Virus record (IMG/VR): IMGVR_UViG_3300010160_000301
Span: 1 to 20,054 of that record
From: a virus
DNA length: 20,054 nucleotides
Strand: one strand, 5' to 3'
Positions 1,856 to 18,546 of this stretch are shown piece by piece. Under the pieces are notes generated by a model. It saw only the letters and a program-made list of their open reading frames with translations. It was not told the DNA's origin and did not search any database. Made by a program: the position numbers and the translations under genes. Positions within the stretch are counted from its first letter, which is position 1, and each line of letters starts with the position of its first letter.

Positions 1856-3001
1856 ATGGCTTTAGTAATAGATGATATAGAAAAAGAAAAGGTCTTCCGT
1901 CAAATTAGACATAGATTAGGGGCTCCACTTAGAAAGATAGAATTGTCTGATGAACAAATGTGCACTTTATTGGAAATTTCTATAGAAGATCATTCTGCAT
2001 ATATTAATGAATGGTTGATAGAGTCACAATGGTCATCTCTCGATAATATTAATTTAAGTACAGCGGATTTAACTAAAGCATTAACTACCAGAGGACAGGA
2101 TTATGAAGATAGTTTTACATATGCCTATTCTAAAATAGTTGGTTTACAAGCAAGAGGTCCCTGGGAATTAAAACAAGATTATGTTGTTTTAACAGATCAT
2201 CAACAAGTATACCAAATACCTGCCGGTCGTGAAATGAGTGAAGTACTTTATTTCCAACCACCAACAGTAGATTATGCTTTATATTCTAACTATGGTTTTG
2301 GTGATTATGGTTTTGGTGGTGGTGTTGCTCAGTTACCATATGGTGCTGCTGGTGGTGGTTTTGGTTATGGTGGTTTTTATTTGGCACCAGCTTTTGATAT
2401 TGTATTAAGAAATGCGGATTATAATTTAAAACAAAGATTAGTTAGTTCAGAATTAACTTATTGGATTACAGCAGGACCTAATGGAACTAAATTATTACAC
2501 TTATCACCACCCCCAGGAAGTCGTTTGGCTTTTGGTCGTGGTGGTTTTGCGGGTGGTAATTCTGTTAACGTTGGTGGTAGTCGAGTTTGGTATTGGTATT
2601 ATGAAACAACAACGGCAGAAGATAGGTTACGTTGTTTAAACGCAAATAAAGATATTGTGAAACTACCTTCTGATGTTCCGATTGACGTTGTTAATTTCAC
2701 GGAATTAAATACACCGTCAAAACAATGGGTCAGAGATTATTTTACTGCTTTATGTAAAGAAACCCTTGGTAGGGTTCGTGGTAAATTTGGTGGTGTCCTT
2801 GGTGTTGCCGAAGCAGAAGTTACCATGGATTATGAATCGCTACTATCAGAATCAAAAGAAGATAAAGATAAATTAATGACCCGACTTAATGAAAGGTTAG
2901 AAAGATTACGTCCAGACAATATGTTAACAAGAAAGGCAACAGAAGCCGAACAATTAAATAAGATGTTACAATACAGACCTTTAGGCATAACAGTTATATA
3001 A
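1856..3001 (+). CDS. Neck / head-tail connector-like structural protein (possible T4 gp13-type)
   Basis: This 381-residue protein looks like a neck or head-completion component of a T4-like virion. The N-terminus has the pattern I-R-x-R-LGAP (Leu21-Pro24) followed by an acidic helix with spaced Asp/Glu and Tyr. From memory this resembles the start of gp13-like neck proteins of large myoviruses. Residues ~140-180 are a glycine- and aromatic-rich loop (repeated GFG and YGG), unusual in a globular protein and perhaps a surface or inter-subunit loop. The C-terminal ~90 residues, with KETLGRVRGKFGG and then a charged helix ending in RLERLRP, fit the helical tail of that family. It lies directly upstream of the fibre genes, with one base before the next ATG. 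The structural role is well supported by context; the exact T4 equivalence is tentative. Confidence 0.5.
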   Translation: MALVIDDIEKEKVFRQIRHRLGAPLRKIELSDEQMCTLLEISIEDHSAYINEWLIESQWSSLDNINLSTADLTKALTTRGQDYEDSFTYAYSKIVGLQARGPWELKQDYVVLTDHQQVYQIPAGREMSEVLYFQPPTVDYALYSNYGFGDYGFGGGVAQLPYGAAGGGFGYGGFYLAPAFDIVLRNADYNLKQRLVSSELTYWITAGPNGTKLLHLSPPPGSRLAFGRGGFAGGNSVNVGGSRVWYWYYETTTAEDRLRCLNANKDIVKLPSDVPIDVVNFTELNTPSKQWVRDYFTALCKETLGRVRGKFGGVLGVAEAEVTMDYESLLSESKEDKDKLMTRLNERLERLRPDNMLTRKATEAEQLNKMLQYRPLGITVI

Positions 3002-3002
3002 A

Positions 3003-5081
3003 ATGGCACAATTCCTAACCCGTCCAAATTTTGAAGACAGACAAATCGTTCAGCGTATAGGTGATAGCATAAATCTATCAGGAACAACTACTATATCAAA
3101 TCCAGGTTATTTAAAAATTAATCAAAGTGCCGCACCAGGTTTGGTTGCGACATCTTTAGATTTCGATGGTACCGTTATTTGGGGCCCTGTTAGTGGTTTA
3201 AGTTGGTCTATATCAGCTTGTACATCACCACTTTATGTTAATAATATTGTTGCATGTCCTTCTTCGGCAGGAACTATAACAGTCCAATCAGGGATTCTAA
3301 AAGTTAATGGATCATTACAATTGAACCCAACACTTTCAGGCGGAACTGTAAATAACAGAATTTTAGTTATTGATAATAATGGGTTTGTTAAAGTAGGTCA
3401 AACAGGTACTTCTATAAGTTCTTTAAATTATAGTAATAACAACTTAATTTTAACTTTAAATGATGGTAGTATTTTTACGGCAACCATCAATACAATGACA
3501 GGTTTAACCGTTAATGGTAATTTAACTGTTAGTGGTAATACTTCTATAGTTGGTAAGTTAAATGTTACTGGTAACACATATGTTAGTGGTTCAGTAAGTG
3601 CAACAACTTTTTACGGTAATGGGTCTAATTTAACAGGTATCCCTGATTATTATGTTACGGGTGGTACTTTTACAAGTAATATTTTAACACTAAATCGTCA
3701 AAATGGTTCTGTTACAATAGCAGGTTTTACCGGATTTACCGATAACTATGTTACAGGTGGTACCTATAACTATGGTACCGGTACTTTAACACTTAGTAGA
3801 CAAAATGGTTCCGTAAATATAAGTGGAATACAATTTACTGGTAATACATTAGCTTCTTGTATTAATGATATTTACATTCAAAATTTATATGGATGTGGTA
3901 ATCCGATAACAATCCAGAGTTCACTTAAAAGTGTAGCTGGTGGTTCTACTGCAGCCGGAACATTAGCTCTTGCTTTTGGTAACGGTGTAACGGCCGCGGG
4001 TAATTATTCCATGGCTCAGGGCATTGGAACATCCACCGCTGGTGGTACATATGCTCATGCAGAAGGTAAATCAACAATAGCTTCAAATCAGTATTCACAT
4101 GCAGAAGGTGATACCACACAAGCTAGTGGAATAGGTTCACACGCGGAAGGTAGTAATAGTGTTTCAAGTGGACAAGGTTCACATGCGGAAGGACAAACTA
4201 CGACTTCTAGTGGTAATTACTCACATTCACAGGGAATCTCAACAACATCATCTGGTATTTATTCATTCGCTTCAGGTTCGGCGTCAACCGCATCGGGTAT
4301 TGCATCTTTTGTTCATTCAAGTAATTCTACGGTATCTGGTAATAGGTCGGTTGTTTTGGGGGGTCAAGGGATAAACGGTACACAAAGTGATTATGTTTAT
4401 GTTTCTAATTTAAATATTAATTCAACACCAACAAACGACGATACAAACACTAAAGTTTTGGTTAGAAATACCTCTACAGGTAATGTTGAAACTAAAACTT
4501 TTGGGTTAGACAGTATAGTTTTAACCGTGGCTCCACCAATAATACCAATAGTAGGAGTTGGTCCATCTGTTGATACAATAAAAGGGATTCCACAAGGTCA
4601 GGTAATAACTGGTTATACATCGATTTATGTTAATAACACTTTACAAGTAGGGCCTAGTGTAACAACAAACTTTGGTTCTTACGACAACACAACGGGTTTA
4701 TTCACCACAAATGTTAATGCGACATTAATGTTAAATGCGTGGATACATTTAAAACCAGATACAAGCACTTCTACCGCGTGGTCACTTTCGGGTACAGGTG
4801 AGTTTGGATTGGGTATTTGTCCTAATAACGCTACCGATATTTATGTTGGGAACTATCAAACAATCATACCAGACCCTGACACCGCACAATATGTGTATGA
4901 ACTATATGGTGCAAATGCACCAAGAACAAACCAAATAGATATTAGTATTAATAATATTGTTTACCTTAATTCTGGTGCCACATTCAGGCTTAAAGTTTTA
5001 AATAAAACCGATAGAAGTTATGCTGGCCCTAGTGTTGTTACTGGTGATGCTATTAGGTTCTCAATAACAAGGATAATGTAA
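3003..5081 (+). CDS. Tail fibre with YadA-like repeats and C1q/TNF-like tip
   Basis: A 692-residue trimeric-fibre-type protein, rich in Gly, Ser, Thr and Asn. The N-terminal ~60 residues are non-repetitive and probably anchor to the virion. Residues ~130-280 hold beta-helix-like repeats (NGNLTVSGN and two copies of YVTGGT...LTL.RQNGSV.I.G). Residues 334-446 form eight 14-15-residue repeats of the YadA/Hia head type (consensus x-Y-S-H-A-E-G-x-x-T-x-x-S-G), which fold as a left-handed beta-roll in trimeric adhesins. A linker VLVRNTSTGNVETK leads to a ~180-residue C-terminal domain (from ~510) with the GxFT...L..A..HLKPDT pattern of C1q/TNF-like jelly rolls. The next gene shares that linker and tip. 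No endosialidase-type (S74) chaperone is seen. The likely role is receptor binding. Confidence 0.85.
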   Translation: MAQFLTRPNFEDRQIVQRIGDSINLSGTTTISNPGYLKINQSAAPGLVATSLDFDGTVIWGPVSGLSWSISACTSPLYVNNIVACPSSAGTITVQSGILKVNGSLQLNPTLSGGTVNNRILVIDNNGFVKVGQTGTSISSLNYSNNNLILTLNDGSIFTATINTMTGLTVNGNLTVSGNTSIVGKLNVTGNTYVSGSVSATTFYGNGSNLTGIPDYYVTGGTFTSNILTLNRQNGSVTIAGFTGFTDNYVTGGTYNYGTGTLTLSRQNGSVNISGIQFTGNTLASCINDIYIQNLYGCGNPITIQSSLKSVAGGSTAAGTLALAFGNGVTAAGNYSMAQGIGTSTAGGTYAHAEGKSTIASNQYSHAEGDTTQASGIGSHAEGSNSVSSGQGSHAEGQTTTSSGNYSHSQGISTTSSGIYSFASGSASTASGIASFVHSSNSTVSGNRSVVLGGQGINGTQSDYVYVSNLNINSTPTNDDTNTKVLVRNTSTGNVETKTFGLDSIVLTVAPPIIPIVGVGPSVDTIKGIPQGQVITGYTSIYVNNTLQVGPSVTTNFGSYDNTTGLFTTNVNATLMLNAWIHLKPDTSTSTAWSLSGTGEFGLGICPNNATDIYVGNYQTIIPDPDTAQYVYELYGANAPRTNQIDISINNIVYLNSGATFRLKVLNKTDRSYAGPSVVTGDAIRFSITRIM
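4002..4340 (+). repeat. Eight in-frame YadA-like 42-45-bp coding repeats
   Basis: Eight tandem units, seven of 42 bp and one of 45 bp, encode 14-15 residues each with the core SHAEG or a variant (MAQG, HSQG, FASG). The DNA copies are diverged while the protein pattern is kept, which fits selection on the beta-roll rather than recent slippage. Such arrays can change length by recombination. Confidence 0.85.
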
Positions 5082-5097
5082 AAAAATATAATATAAA

Positions 5098-6657
5098 ATG
5101 TCATTAAATTTAAGAAGTTCAGGGAACCCTTTAACACAACCACAATTAGATAATAACCTTACTTTTTTATATAGTAGAGATATCACTGGTAGTACGGTAA
5201 CTGGAACAACTCTTTTTTTGTATAAACAAGATGGTACGGTTTTAACAACACAGTTACCGTCAAATAGTGGTGGAACAGGTGTTGATACGTTTACGACAGG
5301 TTTTACTTTTACTAACAATAACACTTTAACAATAAGTAGGAATCAAGGATTAAGTAATTTACCTGTTACAATAAATAATTTAACCTTAACAGGTTTAACA
5401 GTTAATGGGAGTATTTCAGCTTCCACATATTTAGGTTTACCACAAACAGTTCCTGGATCACCAGTTAACAGTATACAGTTTAACGGTGGTAGTAACGTAT
5501 TCAGTGGTTCTTCTAATTTTACCTTTAACCCATCAACAAATGTTCTTTCTTTAGTCGGAACTGTTAGTATTACGGGAAACAGTACTGCACTAAGTAATAT
5601 GATTAACGGTGGTGTAACTAATTTTATCACAAACAATAATAGTGGTACTGGGGCGTATTCGGCAAACGGGTTAATAATGGGTAGAGGTGGTTCTAGTATT
5701 TCTACATCAAAATTTTTGTTTACTACAGGGTATACTAACACTTATATTCGTAATACAGATTTAACAACTGTTGAAACTGTTGGTGCTGTTAGTGGCGGTT
5801 TAAATAATTCATCTCTCCCAACAAAACAGATTAATTTTATAGCTTCTCAAAATGGTGGTTCCGTCTTTGAATGGCATTATAACACTAGTAATACGTTAGC
5901 AGACGTAACAACAGCAAAAATGATATTATCAGCATCTACTGGTAATTTGTTTACATCTGGGTCTTACTCTACAACTGCTTTAACTTTAAGAAATACACCG
6001 ACCTTACATACAGGTACAACCTCCCAAGTTTTGGTTAGAGATACAATGACCGGTAACGTCGAAGTTAAAAACATAGGAAATGTTTATTACTGTGCTTTGT
6101 TTATAAATAGTACATCACAACCAAACGCTGGGGTTATACCATCAGTACCGGTAAGTAATGGTGGTATCGCCGATAAGGGTCGTTTTATTACTGGTTTTAC
6201 ACAAATAGCGTCAAACGGTACCGTATCGACAGCTTCGGGTGTTGGTAATTATGTTACATCACCACCTTCTTGTAGTTTTGGTAGTTTTAATAATAATACC
6301 GGTGTTTTTACAATTACACAAGCTGGACTTTATTTAGTAGAAGGTGCTATACATTTAAAACCTGATACTAGTTCTAGTGTTTATTGGCAATCAGGTACCA
6401 CAAGTGGCACCTCAAGTGGTACATTTGGTTTGGGTATTTGTGATAACACTATAACAAACATATACGGAGGTAATTACATGACAGTACAACCAAATTTACA
6501 TACTGAAATAGATATTTCAACTAGTAATTTAATTTACGCGGACGGTACAAATGACTATGTTTCACTTAAATATTTAAACTGGACCAACAGAAATTACGAT
6601 GGTACTGTTTACCCCAATAGTGACGGTATAAGATTTTCAATCACAAAAGTATACTAA
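5098..6657 (+). CDS. Second tail fibre/receptor-binding protein with C1q/TNF-like tip
   Basis: A 519-residue fibre protein, partly paralogous to its upstream neighbour. The N-terminus, with GNPLTQPQLDNNLTFLYSRD, is short and probably attaches it to the virion. The middle holds beta-rich repeats, including LTGLTVNGSISASTYLGLP, a phrase that also occurs in variant form in the preceding fibre. The linker VLVRDTMTGNVEVK and the tip from ~328 match the upstream protein: HLKPDTSSS, FGLGIC.N..T.IY.GNY, IDIS..N.IY and a terminal RFSIT. The YadA-like repeat block is absent here, so the pair shares a tip on different shafts. The stop overlaps the next start (TAATG at 6655-6659). The fibre assignment is strong; which receptor it binds cannot be read from sequence. 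Confidence 0.82.
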   Translation: MSLNLRSSGNPLTQPQLDNNLTFLYSRDITGSTVTGTTLFLYKQDGTVLTTQLPSNSGGTGVDTFTTGFTFTNNNTLTISRNQGLSNLPVTINNLTLTGLTVNGSISASTYLGLPQTVPGSPVNSIQFNGGSNVFSGSSNFTFNPSTNVLSLVGTVSITGNSTALSNMINGGVTNFITNNNSGTGAYSANGLIMGRGGSSISTSKFLFTTGYTNTYIRNTDLTTVETVGAVSGGLNNSSLPTKQINFIASQNGGSVFEWHYNTSNTLADVTTAKMILSASTGNLFTSGSYSTTALTLRNTPTLHTGTTSQVLVRDTMTGNVEVKNIGNVYYCALFINSTSQPNAGVIPSVPVSNGGIADKGRFITGFTQIASNGTVSTASGVGNYVTSPPSCSFGSFNNNTGVFTITQAGLYLVEGAIHLKPDTSSSVYWQSGTTSGTSSGTFGLGICDNTITNIYGGNYMTVQPNLHTEIDISTSNLIYADGTNDYVSLKYLNWTNRNYDGTVYPNSDGIRFSITKVY

Positions 6658-8429
6658 TGGATATAAAAAACAACTATTATTTTAAAAATTTTGAAACCAT
6701 AAACATTGTTTACAATGACTATTGGGATTTTAATTTAGCCAATGACAAGACAGGTGATTATATTCCTTATGCCATTAACTGTAAAGATAGTTGTGGCCAT
6801 AATATTGTAACCGATGGCTTGGTCGCATGGTTTGATATTAATAATAGTGGTACCACAACGTCAAGTTATACCTTGACTTCTTTAGCGGAATGGTCAAGTT
6901 ATATCTTGACCCCTTCCAGTGGATTCACATTAAACGACTGGGGTTTAACAGGGGTTGATAACGGCAGAACTAACTGTTTAACAGGAAAAACTTTAGTTAT
7001 AACGTCAGCCAATACTAGATTAGTTTTATATGCAGTTACTGGTTATAGCATAACATACACACCAGAATCTGGTTGTACTGTGGGCCCAGGAATTTATTCA
7101 TACCCATATAAAACCCACTATAATGTACAAGCTTTAGGCGGTTGTCCAGTGGGTAATACCGTTTGTTTGAATGGAGGTTTTTACCAAGGGTTTTTTAAAC
7201 TAGATGACGATAACCCATCACCTGTTAACGAGTTAGATGATAACTCTTGTCATGGAAGTGGGTATACCTTAACTTCGGTTTCGGGTTATACCAAATGGCA
7301 GGTAATGCCAACAGAATTCCCAAATGGATGGTCAATGGAAACTTGGATTAAAAGGGATAACTCTTTTTGTGTATCAGGGAGTACGTCGGCTTTAACTTTA
7401 AACACCGTTTTTACGGGAAACAGTAATTTCTTCTTTTACATTGGTACACGAGCTGAAAATAAATTTTGGAATAATTTTTCGGGTGAAACAGGTTATACAA
7501 CAAGTACCGGAATTCCGTTACAAAGAACATCTTCCTTAGAATATGAGGAAAGGGTTGTGGGACCAAATAGTGGTGTTAGTTGGTTTACCAGGAACACTAG
7601 TTGTGGGTGTCAAGTCACTTGTGGTGTTTGTGGTACCGTTACACCAGGGTATGTTGACCCAAGTTATATATCTGGGGGTCAAAACTGGTTCTCAAGAGGT
7701 AGCAGTCAAATAGCTGCTTGTTGTAGTGTTTGTAATACACCAGCATTAAATTCCGTAGTTACAGGGTATAGTTATAGTTATTGTGACCAAATATCAGAAA
7801 ACGCTTTAGGTTTTAGAATAACAAAAGATGGTCGTATTGGTTATCGTAAAATGACGGTTACGGGTGATTGTTATAATAATAAATTTTTAATTACCGGTAC
7901 CGTTATGGAAGAAGGTTACTCCGATGCAAATGTAATACCAACAGGAAATAGTTGGACACATGTTGTGGTAACTTATGTTGAAGGTGGTTCTAAATATGGT
8001 TTACCAGCAGGAACTTTAACTTTTTGGGTTAATGGTTTGGCAAAATATAAGGTCTATGATTTTATTGGTTTACAATTAAGAGCTTTAGATGAATGGAGTG
8101 CCAAACAAATTGGGGTTCCATTTAATATGAGTTGGGGTGGTGGTACACAAGGTTTAACTGAAAGTCAAACTTTTGGTGGTCCTGACCCAGCAGACAAAAA
8201 TATGGATATTCAAAAATATTTTGCAGGTACTTTTGAAGGTGAACTTTCACAGTTACGTTTTTACGAAAAAGCTTTAAATGTTTTAGAAGTTAGAAACAAT
8301 TTCTTTGTTGATTGTCGAAGATATTGTAAAGATAATACCTTTGGTGGGGCACAAATTGTACAACCAGGTAACAGTAATTGTGGTAGTTGTAAAAGTCCGT
8401 TACCACCTTACATCATAATACCATGTTGA
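6657..8429 (+). CDS. Cysteine-rich LamG/concanavalin-like virion protein
   Basis: A 590-residue protein with hallmarks of a LamG-like (Laminin_G_3-type) carbohydrate-binding jelly roll: DGLVAWFD at residue ~53, GWSMETWIKRD at ~224, SWTHVVVTYVEGG at ~432 with the following TLTFWVNG, and GTFEGELSQLRFYEKAL at ~524. Long insertions split the fold. It has about 22 cysteines, many paired as CGC, CGVC, CC or CGSC, concentrated in the insertions and the last ~60 residues, which is far more than its neighbours. No signal peptide or membrane segment is visible. Translation is probably coupled to the upstream fibre through TAATG. Position after two fibres suggests a host-surface glycan-binding part of the tail, possibly with metal-bound or disulfide-stabilised loops. 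Confidence 0.72.
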   Translation: MDIKNNYYFKNFETINIVYNDYWDFNLANDKTGDYIPYAINCKDSCGHNIVTDGLVAWFDINNSGTTTSSYTLTSLAEWSSYILTPSSGFTLNDWGLTGVDNGRTNCLTGKTLVITSANTRLVLYAVTGYSITYTPESGCTVGPGIYSYPYKTHYNVQALGGCPVGNTVCLNGGFYQGFFKLDDDNPSPVNELDDNSCHGSGYTLTSVSGYTKWQVMPTEFPNGWSMETWIKRDNSFCVSGSTSALTLNTVFTGNSNFFFYIGTRAENKFWNNFSGETGYTTSTGIPLQRTSSLEYEERVVGPNSGVSWFTRNTSCGCQVTCGVCGTVTPGYVDPSYISGGQNWFSRGSSQIAACCSVCNTPALNSVVTGYSYSYCDQISENALGFRITKDGRIGYRKMTVTGDCYNNKFLITGTVMEEGYSDANVIPTGNSWTHVVVTYVEGGSKYGLPAGTLTFWVNGLAKYKVYDFIGLQLRALDEWSAKQIGVPFNMSWGGGTQGLTESQTFGGPDPADKNMDIQKYFAGTFEGELSQLRFYEKALNVLEVRNNFFVDCRRYCKDNTFGGAQIVQPGNSNCGSCKSPLPPYIIIPC

Positions 8430-12487: not shown

Positions 12488-13096
12488 ATGATTAATTTTT
12501 TAAATGAGTTTATATATTTTGATGGTAAAAATGTTCCTCTTAGAGATGACGTTAAATCATCTTCTAACAGTACTACCGACCCAATGTTTGACCCAGAAGA
12601 CGGGCATCAACTAAAAAACGCTACCGCACAACAACGTCAACAAGGTTATCGAGGGTATTACTCTTTAGTACCAATGCCATCCGTTAAAACACCACTGGCA
12701 AGTGATAGTTACCCGACAATGATTTCGTATATGGATGATGAAGAAAAAGTTAGGACACCTAAGAAAAGTAAAAAATACCCTAGCCCTAAAAATATCAAAA
12801 GAAAAATAAAAGAAACTTCAAAAGATAAAATGAAGGGTATGGTGGAAGATATTGTTACTAAAAAGGTGACAAAAGATATTTTTAACCTTAAAAAAAATGA
12901 AATCCCCGATATTGATGCTGTTGCAGAAGAAAACCCTATTTTAGTTAGAAAGTTAAAAAATCTAATTGATATTGTTTCTTTAAATCAGGCTACTGGTGAA
13001 CAAAAAGGTATTATCCTAAACTTCTTGGTTAGTAATATCGATACCGTTAATATTCCTGTAGAATATAAAAAAGAAATTACCAAAAATTTACAATAA
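12488..13096 (+). CDS. Unknown lysine-rich protein, possible virion component
   Basis: A 202-residue protein in three visible parts: residues 1-80, polar and Pro/Gln-rich with GYRGYYSLVPMPS; residues ~85-125, very basic and Lys-rich (KKSKKYPSPKNIKRKIK), likely disordered or nucleic-acid binding; and residues ~125-202, helical and acidic-hydrophobic. No known domain is recognised. The N-terminus MINFLNEFI is a short amphipathic stretch, weakly like the leaders of neighbouring genes. One base separates its stop from the next ATG, so the following genes are probably cotranscribed. A head-associated or scaffold-like role is possible from size, composition and context only. Confidence 0.7.
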   Translation: MINFLNEFIYFDGKNVPLRDDVKSSSNSTTDPMFDPEDGHQLKNATAQQRQQGYRGYYSLVPMPSVKTPLASDSYPTMISYMDDEEKVRTPKKSKKYPSPKNIKRKIKETSKDKMKGMVEDIVTKKVTKDIFNLKKNEIPDIDAVAEENPILVRKLKNLIDIVSLNQATGEQKGIILNFLVSNIDTVNIPVEYKKEITKNLQ

Positions 13097-13633
13097 ATGG
13101 CAAACTCACAGTTACAAGGTCGTTATTGGGATATTCCTGAAGAATTACTTAACCATTTAAAAAGAATTATGCGTGCATACAAAGGTAAGGAAAATGTTGA
13201 GGGGTATCAGAGATTAAGAAATTTAATATCTGAACCTAAAGTTAGTTATGAAGAATTAAAAAGAGTTAAAAATTTTTTTGACACTCAATCTTCAGATACT
13301 GATTTTATGGGTGATAAAAAACAAACAACACCCTTTATACTTAATGGTGGTTTAAAAATGAAAAGTTGGGTTGATGAAACTTTAAAGACATCAAGAGATA
13401 ACATTGATGGTGTTAAAAAAATAAAAACCGATACCGCCATGGGTAATTACTACCAAAAAGATAGTATGTCAAGAGATGTTAAAAATTTAAAACCAAAAAC
13501 AGATGATGTAAAAATAAAACATTCACATCAAAAAAGTGTTTCAGAGGCTATTTATGAAATAAACATAATGGAAAACATAATAAATATTTTTAATAAAAAC
13601 AAAGAATCATGCCACAAATTTCACCAGTATTAA
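13097..13633 (+). CDS. Unknown helical phage protein
   Basis: A 178-residue protein. The first ~75 residues are helical, with IPEELLNHLKRIMRAYKG and VEGYQRLRNLI, followed by YEELKRVKNFFD, and look like a compact helical domain; FILNGGLKMKSWVDETL (~residues 82-98) follows. The middle is basic and polar. The C-terminus (~residues 147-165) carries SVSEAIYEINIMENIINIF, an amphipathic helix. I recall similar unnamed proteins in large Bacteroidota phages but can give no function. Its last 25 bases overlap the next gene in another frame, which is typical of phage packing. No catalytic motif or membrane segment is visible. Confidence 0.7.
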   Translation: MANSQLQGRYWDIPEELLNHLKRIMRAYKGKENVEGYQRLRNLISEPKVSYEELKRVKNFFDTQSSDTDFMGDKKQTTPFILNGGLKMKSWVDETLKTSRDNIDGVKKIKTDTAMGNYYQKDSMSRDVKNLKPKTDDVKIKHSHQKSVSEAIYEINIMENIINIFNKNKESCHKFHQY

Positions 13634-13950
13634 CAGACCCAGGTAGTGTCCAAAGTTTTGGACCAGGAGGTATTTTAAACCAATTACCAGGATTAAAACA
13701 AACAGCTGACGCCGAAAGATTAACTTTAACCGTTCTTAACGAATATAAAGATACAGCGGCCGATAGATACAGTTCAACACATCCAAACGCATTAAGTGAT
13801 AATGACGGTTTTGGTCGTGGAGATGCTAACGGTCAAGTAGGTACTATCGTTGATATACAAACTCAACAAACATTAACTTATTCATCGGGTAATAAATACA
13901 AACCTGGTATGGGTTACGATAACTTTAATTACCCACAACAATATTGGTAG
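13609..13950 (+). CDS. Unknown small phage protein, probably virion-related
   Basis: A 113-residue protein starting at an ATG inside the end of the upstream gene. It is Gly/Pro/Asn-rich, with SFGPGGILNQLPGLKQTADAE at its N-terminal side, a short helix (LTLTVLNEYKDTAADRY), and a Tyr/Asn-rich tail ending in NYPQQYW. The mix of low-complexity loops and a short helix would suit a small capsid or tail accessory protein, but no family is recognised. It ends with tandem stops TAG TAA. Reading the ATG as start is supported by the stop-to-start packing on both sides and lack of an alternative. Confidence 0.7.
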   Translation: MPQISPVLTDPGSVQSFGPGGILNQLPGLKQTADAERLTLTVLNEYKDTAADRYSSTHPNALSDNDGFGRGDANGQVGTIVDIQTQQTLTYSSGNKYKPGMGYDNFNYPQQYW

Positions 13951-13953
13951 TAA

Positions 13954-14334
13954 ATGAGACTTTACTCTATTCTAAATGAACTTATTTTAGAAGCAGCTTC
14001 AGATGCGGAAGTTAGTGATGCTATTGTTAAACACAATAGGGTTAAAATAAGATATCAAGAACCAAATGGTAGTTATAGTACTCGATATTTGGAATCTTAT
14101 GTCTTAGGGCTTTCAAAAGCCGGTAACCCAATTGTAAGGGCTTATCAATATGCTGGTGACACTACTACTGAAATAGGTTGGAAAACATTTAGATTAGATC
14201 GGATAATGGATTGGGAAGAAATGAATGAAAGACCGTTTAGTAATCCAATATCTGATAGAGTAACCGGAATACCAAAATATAACCGTCTTGGTGACGGTTC
14301 GATGACAAGAATAAACAAACAAGCAAAATTTTAA
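13954..14334 (+). CDS. Stand-alone WYL-domain protein with capsid-targeting-like leader
   Basis: A 126-residue protein. Residues ~27-88 match the WYL fold: VKIRY, then R-Y-L-E-S-Y-V-LG-S-AG-P (residues 44-59), RAYQYAGDT (62-70) and GWKTFRLDRI (75-84). WYL domains sense ligands or nucleic acids in bacterial regulators, usually joined to a helix-turn-helix; here there is no DNA-binding partner domain. The C-terminal ~35 residues end in GDGSMTRINKQAKF. The N-terminus MRLYSILNELILEAAS resembles the T4 capsid-targeting leader MKTYQEFIAEA, with a candidate prohead-protease site after Glu13. Packaging and delivery into the host would follow if so. WYL assignment is by eye but strong; the leader idea is inference. 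Confidence 0.75.
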   Translation: MRLYSILNELILEAASDAEVSDAIVKHNRVKIRYQEPNGSYSTRYLESYVLGLSKAGNPIVRAYQYAGDTTTEIGWKTFRLDRIMDWEEMNERPFSNPISDRVTGIPKYNRLGDGSMTRINKQAKF

Positions 14335-14337
14335 AAT

Positions 14338-14967
14338 ATGGATCCTAAATTATTAGCAATTCTCAAGAAATCAAAAGCGATTGATAAAGCCGCAGAAAAA
14401 TTTGATACTGGTAAAGCAAAAAGATCACAAACACCTGGTTTAACTAGTGATAGAAATGTTATGGGTGGAAGTTCTTTTGATTACGGACAACAAATGTCTG
14501 AGTCGGTTGAAGCTGGTACTGAAATGTATAATGAAAGAGTACAAAATTCTAGACTACCTGCAGCTATTCAAAAAGCAATGTTAGAAAACCCAATCCCACA
14601 ATTAAACCCAATGGGTGGTGTTGATGAAGAGACAATTAGAGAATTAAATGGTTATACAGTTAAAGAATCGGTTAGACAACCAGCGTACAGTGAAGACGAT
14701 GAAATAGATATGTTTGAAAATGCTGTAAAAAAACCTGAGATTAAAAAAAGAAGAATGGTAACCGAAAATATTAACCAAATGCCGGTTAACGTCGATGAAA
14801 GTTATTTAAGAAAACTAATCGCCTCTGAAATTTCAAAAGCTTTACCAAAAATAATCGAAAACTATTTCGAATCACGTTTGGTTAAAGAAAATGTACAATT
14901 TAAGGCTGGGAGCACAGTTTTTTCAGGAAATGTTATGCCAATGCCTAAATTAAAAAGAAAGCAATAA
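14338..14967 (+). CDS. Unknown protein, possible head scaffold/accessory
   Basis: A 209-residue, charged, largely helical or disordered protein. Features in order are a Lys/Ala/Asp-rich N-terminus (LLAILKKSKAIDKAAEKFD), a Ser/Gly-rich region, an amphipathic SRLPAAIQKAMLENPIPQL (residues ~71-89), an acidic patch EDDEIDMFE, and an amphipathic helix LRKLIASEISKALPKIIENYFESRL (~157-181, given in pieces here) before a basic Pro-Met tail. Such composition suits prohead core or other head-associated proteins, but no family is recognised. It follows the WYL gene by three bases and precedes the microprotein and terminator. Confidence 0.68.
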   Translation: MDPKLLAILKKSKAIDKAAEKFDTGKAKRSQTPGLTSDRNVMGGSSFDYGQQMSESVEAGTEMYNERVQNSRLPAAIQKAMLENPIPQLNPMGGVDEETIRELNGYTVKESVRQPAYSEDDEIDMFENAVKKPEIKKRRMVTENINQMPVNVDESYLRKLIASEISKALPKIIENYFESRLVKENVQFKAGSTVFSGNVMPMPKLKRKQ

Positions 14968-18042: not shown

Positions 18043-18546
18043 ATGTCAGTAGTAGCAGTAAAAGTTTATAAAGATAAAATTGTAATTGGTGCCGATTCAG
18101 TACTTATAAATGACACAGTACAAGAAAAAGATAGAAAAGCTAAACTTTTTCAAAACGATTTTATGTGTGTGGGTGATGTCGGAGAAGCTCAAGAAGGAGC
18201 GTTATTCCGAATATATACAAAAACAAGAAAACCTAGGGAATCTAGTGTTGACGCGATAACAGAATTTCTTTTCGAATTCTATCAATGGAAAAAAGAAAAA
18301 ACTGAAAGTACTGAATTAGTAAATTATTATATAATTGTTTTTGAAAATAAGGCATTTTTAGTTGAAGGCTTTTATGTCAAAGAAATTGTGGATTATATGG
18401 CTATAGGTGCTGGAAATTCGTTCGCACTTGCGGCACTTTACTTGAATCATGATGTATATGACGCAATAAGTGTCGCTTGTGAATTATCAACACTATGTGA
18501 ACCCCCTATTAATATTATAGAAGTACCTATTAAATCCGTTAAATAA
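18043..18546 (+). CDS. HslV/proteasome-beta-like Ntn hydrolase with N-terminal Ser
   Basis: A 167-residue protein close in length to HslV (~175). After removal of Met1 the numbering matches HslV without gaps at the catalytic region: Ser1 (Thr1 in HslV), Asp17 in IGADS, and Lys33 in RKAKLF. Also alignable are VVAVKVYKDKIVIGAD at the start, a GDVGEAQEGALF block where HslV has AGFAGGTADAFTLF, and AIGAGNSFALAALY (~120-133) where HslV has IGSGGPYAQAAA. In HslV this fold cuts unfolded proteins with the ATPase HslU. No HslU or other AAA+ unfoldase is seen in the window, so it may use a host unfoldase or process small substrates alone. Ser1 in place of Thr1 is known in other Ntn hydrolases. Its 3' end is overlapped by the minus-strand nuclease ORF. 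Confidence 0.8.
   Translation: MSVVAVKVYKDKIVIGADSVLINDTVQEKDRKAKLFQNDFMCVGDVGEAQEGALFRIYTKTRKPRESSVDAITEFLFEFYQWKKEKTESTELVNYYIIVFENKAFLVEGFYVKEIVDYMAIGAGNSFALAALYLNHDVYDAISVACELSTLCEPPINIIEVPIKSVK

Follow-up and report, generated by a model that had tools for sequence, protein, structure and literature searches.

The internal head proteins of bacteriophage T4 (IPI-III and Alt) vary between phages; they carry a short N-terminal leader ending in L/I-x-E and, once cut by gp21, are small basic proteins. In one published account (PMC9026906), gp21 is described as cutting after L/I-X-E, with propeptides of 7-65 residues, those of the internal proteins being 10-19 residues long. The WYL domain is an Sm-like barrel shared by BrxR, CapW, PafBC and DriD, regulators of bacterial defence or DNA damage. 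This fold often binds nucleic acids. Single-domain WYL-type proteins are also represented in other phages in the structure library (Vibrio phage Vp_R1 and uncultured Caudovirales), mostly as weak structural matches. Packaging leaders of the T4 type and stand-alone phage WYL proteins are both already known; their combination, a WYL domain together with capsid targeting, was not found in the literature searched. We propose that the protein described below is a core late, head-packaged, nucleic-acid-binding WYL protein of T4-like phages that is trimmed after Glu13, an explanation that we favour and consider reasonably likely.

In the DNA analysed here (the window, 20,054 bases of viral sequence), the ORF at 13954..14334 on the plus strand is assigned, from a Pfam match and a structural model, as a WYL-fold protein precursor of 126 amino acids with the N-terminus MRLYSILNELILEAAS. 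An alternative upstream start was ruled out because an in-frame TAA lies immediately 5' of the ATG. The initial annotation called this a stand-alone WYL protein, and the domain call is borne out: Pfam WYL (PF13280) matches residues 19-88 (14008..14217, plus strand) with an E value of 4.5e-7 and a score of 30.2 bits (cut-off 21.8). The same profile is over its cut-off in 5/7 members of the first, narrow set of relatives and reaches E <= 0.01 in 40 of the 44 members of the wider family. Structure prediction, which the initial annotation had put forward as a check, likewise gave a WYL barrel. The AlphaFold model, built on an alignment of 44 sequences drawn from 49 non-redundant relatives, the window and one broad-set relative, has a mean pLDDT of 86.8, and its top 12 structural matches are all PafBC, BrxR, DriD and CapW chains with Z scores of 8.7 to 11.3 (PafBC 11.3, BrxR 10.4). 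These scores lie above the Sm/Hfq background of about 7-8, which argues that the modelled domain is a real WYL/Sm barrel; an earlier model from 8 sequences had similar structural matches. Sequence searches of the PDB with the WYL protein returned nothing, or a sub-significant PafBC alignment whose sole use was to locate the W-Y-L positions. No second domain was found by Pfam in the 126 residues. There is no helix-turn-helix, just 18 residues with no further Pfam family preceding the WYL domain, and no room for a ferredoxin-like WCX domain, the 38 C-terminal residues forming one short helix and one strand in the model. The protein is thus stand-alone as claimed, but this is a property it shares with the phage proteins mentioned above. 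Its C-terminal residues 109-126 (14278..14331, plus strand) form a conserved stretch in the alignment, YN..GD.SM......F, with a predicted extra beta strand at 117-123.

The W-Y-L tripeptide of strand 3, which gives the domain its name and is not demanded by the PF13280 profile, is missing in all 44 sequences, where positions 59-61 at this site are mostly P/L, I/V and I/L/V. Arg44, Arg62, Trp76 and Asp82 are invariant (44/44), Arg80 is present in 40/44, and a basic residue (Arg or Lys) occupies position 83 throughout. The protein resembles BrxR, CapW, PafBC and DriD in its Sm-like barrel and in the conserved basic positions of a loop of the F-R-L-D-R type, and differs from them in lacking the helix-turn-helix and space for WCX, in its replaced W-Y-L triplet and in its added phage leader. 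According to PMC11804915, binding of ssDNA by PafBC needs arginines of the WYL domain, and that by PafB is abolished on loss of the WYL Tyr. Judged from these mutants and the PafBC alignment, Arg80 and the basic residue at 83 would correspond to the ssDNA-binding arginines of PafBC.

Residues 1-13 (MRLYSILNELILE, 13954..13992, plus strand) are proposed to be a cleavable capsid-targeting leader on the basis of motif conservation and disorder in the model. The leader ends in I-L-E|A, with a hydrophobic residue two before Glu13, the putative cut site. In the first broad set (200 relatives), Glu13 or the aligned leader-end Glu is present in 49/49 distinct proteins, the residue two before it being I, L or V and the middle position unconstrained (L, V, F, N, T, S). 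Since this set had been retrieved partly through the leader pattern itself, the search was repeated with residues 17-126 only; the IMG/VR relatives, which had numbered 7, 23 and 200 as the query was widened, then rose to at least 455. In the best 80 of these at least 455 matches, near-identical records included, [LI]xE ending at residues 9-20 occurs in 54 of the 56 distinct N-terminal 20-mers. The two others are L246, which has V-S-E, and L244, for which a wrong internal start was picked by the script and whose true leader ends in I-I-E. The family combining WYL domain and leader is widespread in uncultured T4-like phages. Divergent leaders keep the motif directly before the WYL domain (for example MTYAEQILREILTE, MVFGGLLEQILLNE and MANTQKQILFE); those of L210, L216 and L242 are about 24 residues long and contain two L/I-x-E motifs, the second adjoining the domain, and a long insert separates leader and domain in L244. 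Conservation over the 44 sequences is 0.64 in the leader, 0.38 in the linker (residues 14-18) and 0.58 in the domain, and the 44-sequence model gives residues 1-12 a pLDDT below 50 and begins the first helix of the domain at residue 17. An integral role of the leader in the fold, as drawn in the 8-sequence model (one long helix, 2-26, of low confidence), was rejected on the 44-sequence model, which separates the two. By its sequence and model the leader behaves as a detachable module, variable in sequence and length, and its resemblance to a T4-type cleavable propeptide is well supported by the sequence. Of the T4-like leader claimed in the initial annotation, the L/I-x-E at Glu13, kept over divergent leaders, and the disorder have stood; the likeness to the T4 leader is one of pattern only, about 13 residues being too few to demonstrate homology.

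A motif this short might be coincidental in termini rich in L, I and E, the protein being an ordinary intracellular WYL protein; the regex classes used for leaders also catch unrelated genes, and the L, I and E content of the leaders accounts for some of the motif count. This explanation is very improbable in view of the shuffle tests and of the Glu that is invariant in all 49 distinct proteins. Among 18 representatives below 50% identity, taken from the best 80 of at least 455 loci, the motif is present in 16 against 6.6 +/- 1.9 in composition shuffles, and 0/5000 shuffles reach 16/18. With automatically called starts the figure for WYL proteins from these best 80 loci is 14/18 against 5.5 in shuffles, and the motif is absent from 8 of the 81 WYL ORFs (best 80 of at least 455, plus the window), in some through an upstream start call. 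Five co-located families in the same 81 loci show no comparable excess (6/23 against 2.9, 4/19 against 2.8, 4/25 against 3.6, 5/22 against 2.9 and 0/11 against 1.0); for the first of them 114/2000 shuffles score as high, and none of the five is clearly above its shuffles.

A protease and capsid of the appropriate type accompany the leader in relatives, as in T4. An S77 (gp21-type) protease is over cut-off in 7/11 and 11/13, together 18/24, leader-bearing IMG/VR records, and these are the very 18 in which gp23 exceeds its cut-off; in the remaining six, which are probably fragments, neither does. The WYL protein of a 108-kb relative (G001) is 89% identical to that of the window, and this relative has gp23 and gp20 homologues and an S77 protease. 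The capsid proteins possess, in 18/18 (a count made without three huge-phage capsid ORFs, which were unparsed), the sequence [I/L/M]-x-E|[A/T/S/G/N] 15-18 residues ahead of a conserved P-[IL]-[VI]-R-R, a site that we take to lie near the cleavage position of T4 gp23, and the I-L-E|A of the window conforms to the same rule. No capsid or protease gene was found in the 20,054 bases of the window, a fragment that does not reach these genes. The T4-like gp20 portal ORF of the 108-kb relative (L020:5411-9814) carries an intein splicing domain as well as an HNH match.

Searches by tblastn of 50,697 phage records with the WYL proteins of the window and its relatives gave nothing, or leaderless homologues in huge phages only, and no cultured phage with the leader-bearing gene was found among these records. 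The huge phages LR745206, LR756504 and LR756501 share the WYL domain (E 3e-6 to 7e-4) in proteins with other N-termini, long C-terminal extensions and no leader. They offer no clean contrast for the leader, because they too have gp23 over cut-off and an S77 match, the latter below cut-off. For prokaryotes, one degenerate-pattern scan of 84,980 genomes, which was not exhaustive, gave 10 stretches, none of them a relative, and a prokaryotic origin by close homology was rejected on this result.

We infer the following route. The leader would draw the precursor into the prohead core, where the gp21-type (S77) protease would cut it after Glu13 in I-L-E|A. The mature protein of 113 residues, basic (pI 9.2; pI above 8 in 37/49 relatives) and of WYL/Sm fold, would be retained alongside the DNA inside the head and probably be ejected with it on infection. 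The WYL barrel is a probable binder of nucleic acid, single-stranded or otherwise; binding would take place within the head, while the DNA enters or immediately afterwards. On sequence grounds, then, the protein is probably packaged in the virion and may be carried into the host cell at infection; the sharpest prediction is a new N-terminus at Ala14. The leader and the small basic product are like those of the T4 internal proteins, whereas the WYL/Sm-fold cargo and the conserved, syntenic gene are not, and packaging is here a prediction from the sequence. If correct, phages would have co-opted, as packaged cargo of the head, the fold with which bacterial regulators of defence and DNA damage sense nucleic acid, and a large uncultured T4-like group would gain a conserved head protein, possibly a whole set of leader-tagged cargo.

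The genetic context is consistent with a core function. The WYL gene lies in a five-gene cassette at 12488-14967 (products of 202, 178 and 113 residues, WYL, and 209 residues) that is conserved across the phage group, its synteny holding over proteins down to about 34% identity. All on the plus strand, and counted over 81 loci (the best 80 of at least 455, plus the window), the 202-aa gene (12488..13096) is present in 64, the 178-aa gene (13097..13633) in 74, the 113-aa gene directly upstream of WYL (13609..13950) in 81 and the 209-aa gene directly downstream (14338..14967) in 78; contig ends may account for some of the missing genes. None of the four partners shows a convincing known family, nor a clear leader in the shuffle test, and the 209-aa protein and one relative of it gave no phage match. 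Strict synteny makes a simple counter-defence gene less likely and favours a core part in the virion or in assembly over a loose accessory one. The same synteny with the 113-, 178-, 202- and 209-aa genes would also suit a structural or assembly protein, for example of the neck or head, whose leader is a conserved docking helix, never cut, that binds a cassette partner. We consider this unlikely: the leader is strongly conserved among close relatives, as a docking helix would be, but its sequence and length vary more widely while L/I-x-E stays beside the domain, an insert can part it from the domain (L244), it is disordered in the model, and the same motif recurs in the capsid proteins. Counted against the favoured explanation are the strict synteny itself, unlike that of the variable T4 internal proteins, the leaderless cassette partners, the leaderless huge-phage homologues despite their gp23, the missing W-Y-L and the leaders rich in L, I and E.

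Head packaging is also compatible with a functional refinement in which the injected protein serves takeover of the host: it would bind what host WYL regulators such as BrxR or CapW bind (ligand, ssDNA or partner) or, like PafBC, RNA polymerase, thereby blunting defence or steering transcription. The fold is closest to regulators of the BrxR, CapW and PafBC type, and T4 Alt and IPI are precedents of injected head proteins (PMC9026906, PMC3012670); the core, syntenic rather than variable gene and the absent WYL tyrosine speak against it, and we give it little weight. More doubtful still is the specific version in which the virion-delivered protein absorbs the ssDNA or nucleotide signal sensed by host BrxR, CapW or PafBC-like regulators, or engages RNA polymerase, thereby switching defence or transcription before phage gene expression.

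The placement of the gene among virion-type genes, as initially annotated, holds only in a broad sense. Upstream, the ORF at 1856-3001 has a partial head-tail-adaptor match (E 3e-9 over 65 residues) and no phage match, and the ORFs at 3003-8429 are read as fibre-like; closer to WYL lie a glycosyltransferase, a DNA polymerase of family-B type and small ORFs that match no known family. A small protein at 18043-18546 shows a weak match, under cut-off, to HslV, a proteasome-like protease (E 0.009), and relatives have comparable ORFs downstream of WYL.

Many unrelated ORFs of a 272-kb relative (G011, L088-L101) and of the 108-kb G001 (L016-L021) also begin with short leaders ending in hydrophobic-x-E, such as MKRIIRLTESDLARIVRRVINE and MKELIRHILKE. 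The leader regex flags 61/295 ORFs in the former and 23/109 in the latter, false positives included, and the leaders of these ORFs differ in sequence from that of WYL; judged by their N-termini, they may represent a large set of packaged proteins. In G001, repeated paralogues starting MKNLIRKIL[KR]EEFDDF are spread through the genome, at L016:1520-2329, L017:16099-16473, L019:12148-12525 and L020:1151-1537. The cassette profiles gave no match at E <= 1 in Flavobacterium phage vB_FspM_immuto_2-6A (L265-L268). This cultured, T4-like phage has ORFs with such leaders (MKKSELVKLIKEEL and MKKSQLRQIIKEAL) and is a possible laboratory system for the leader idea.
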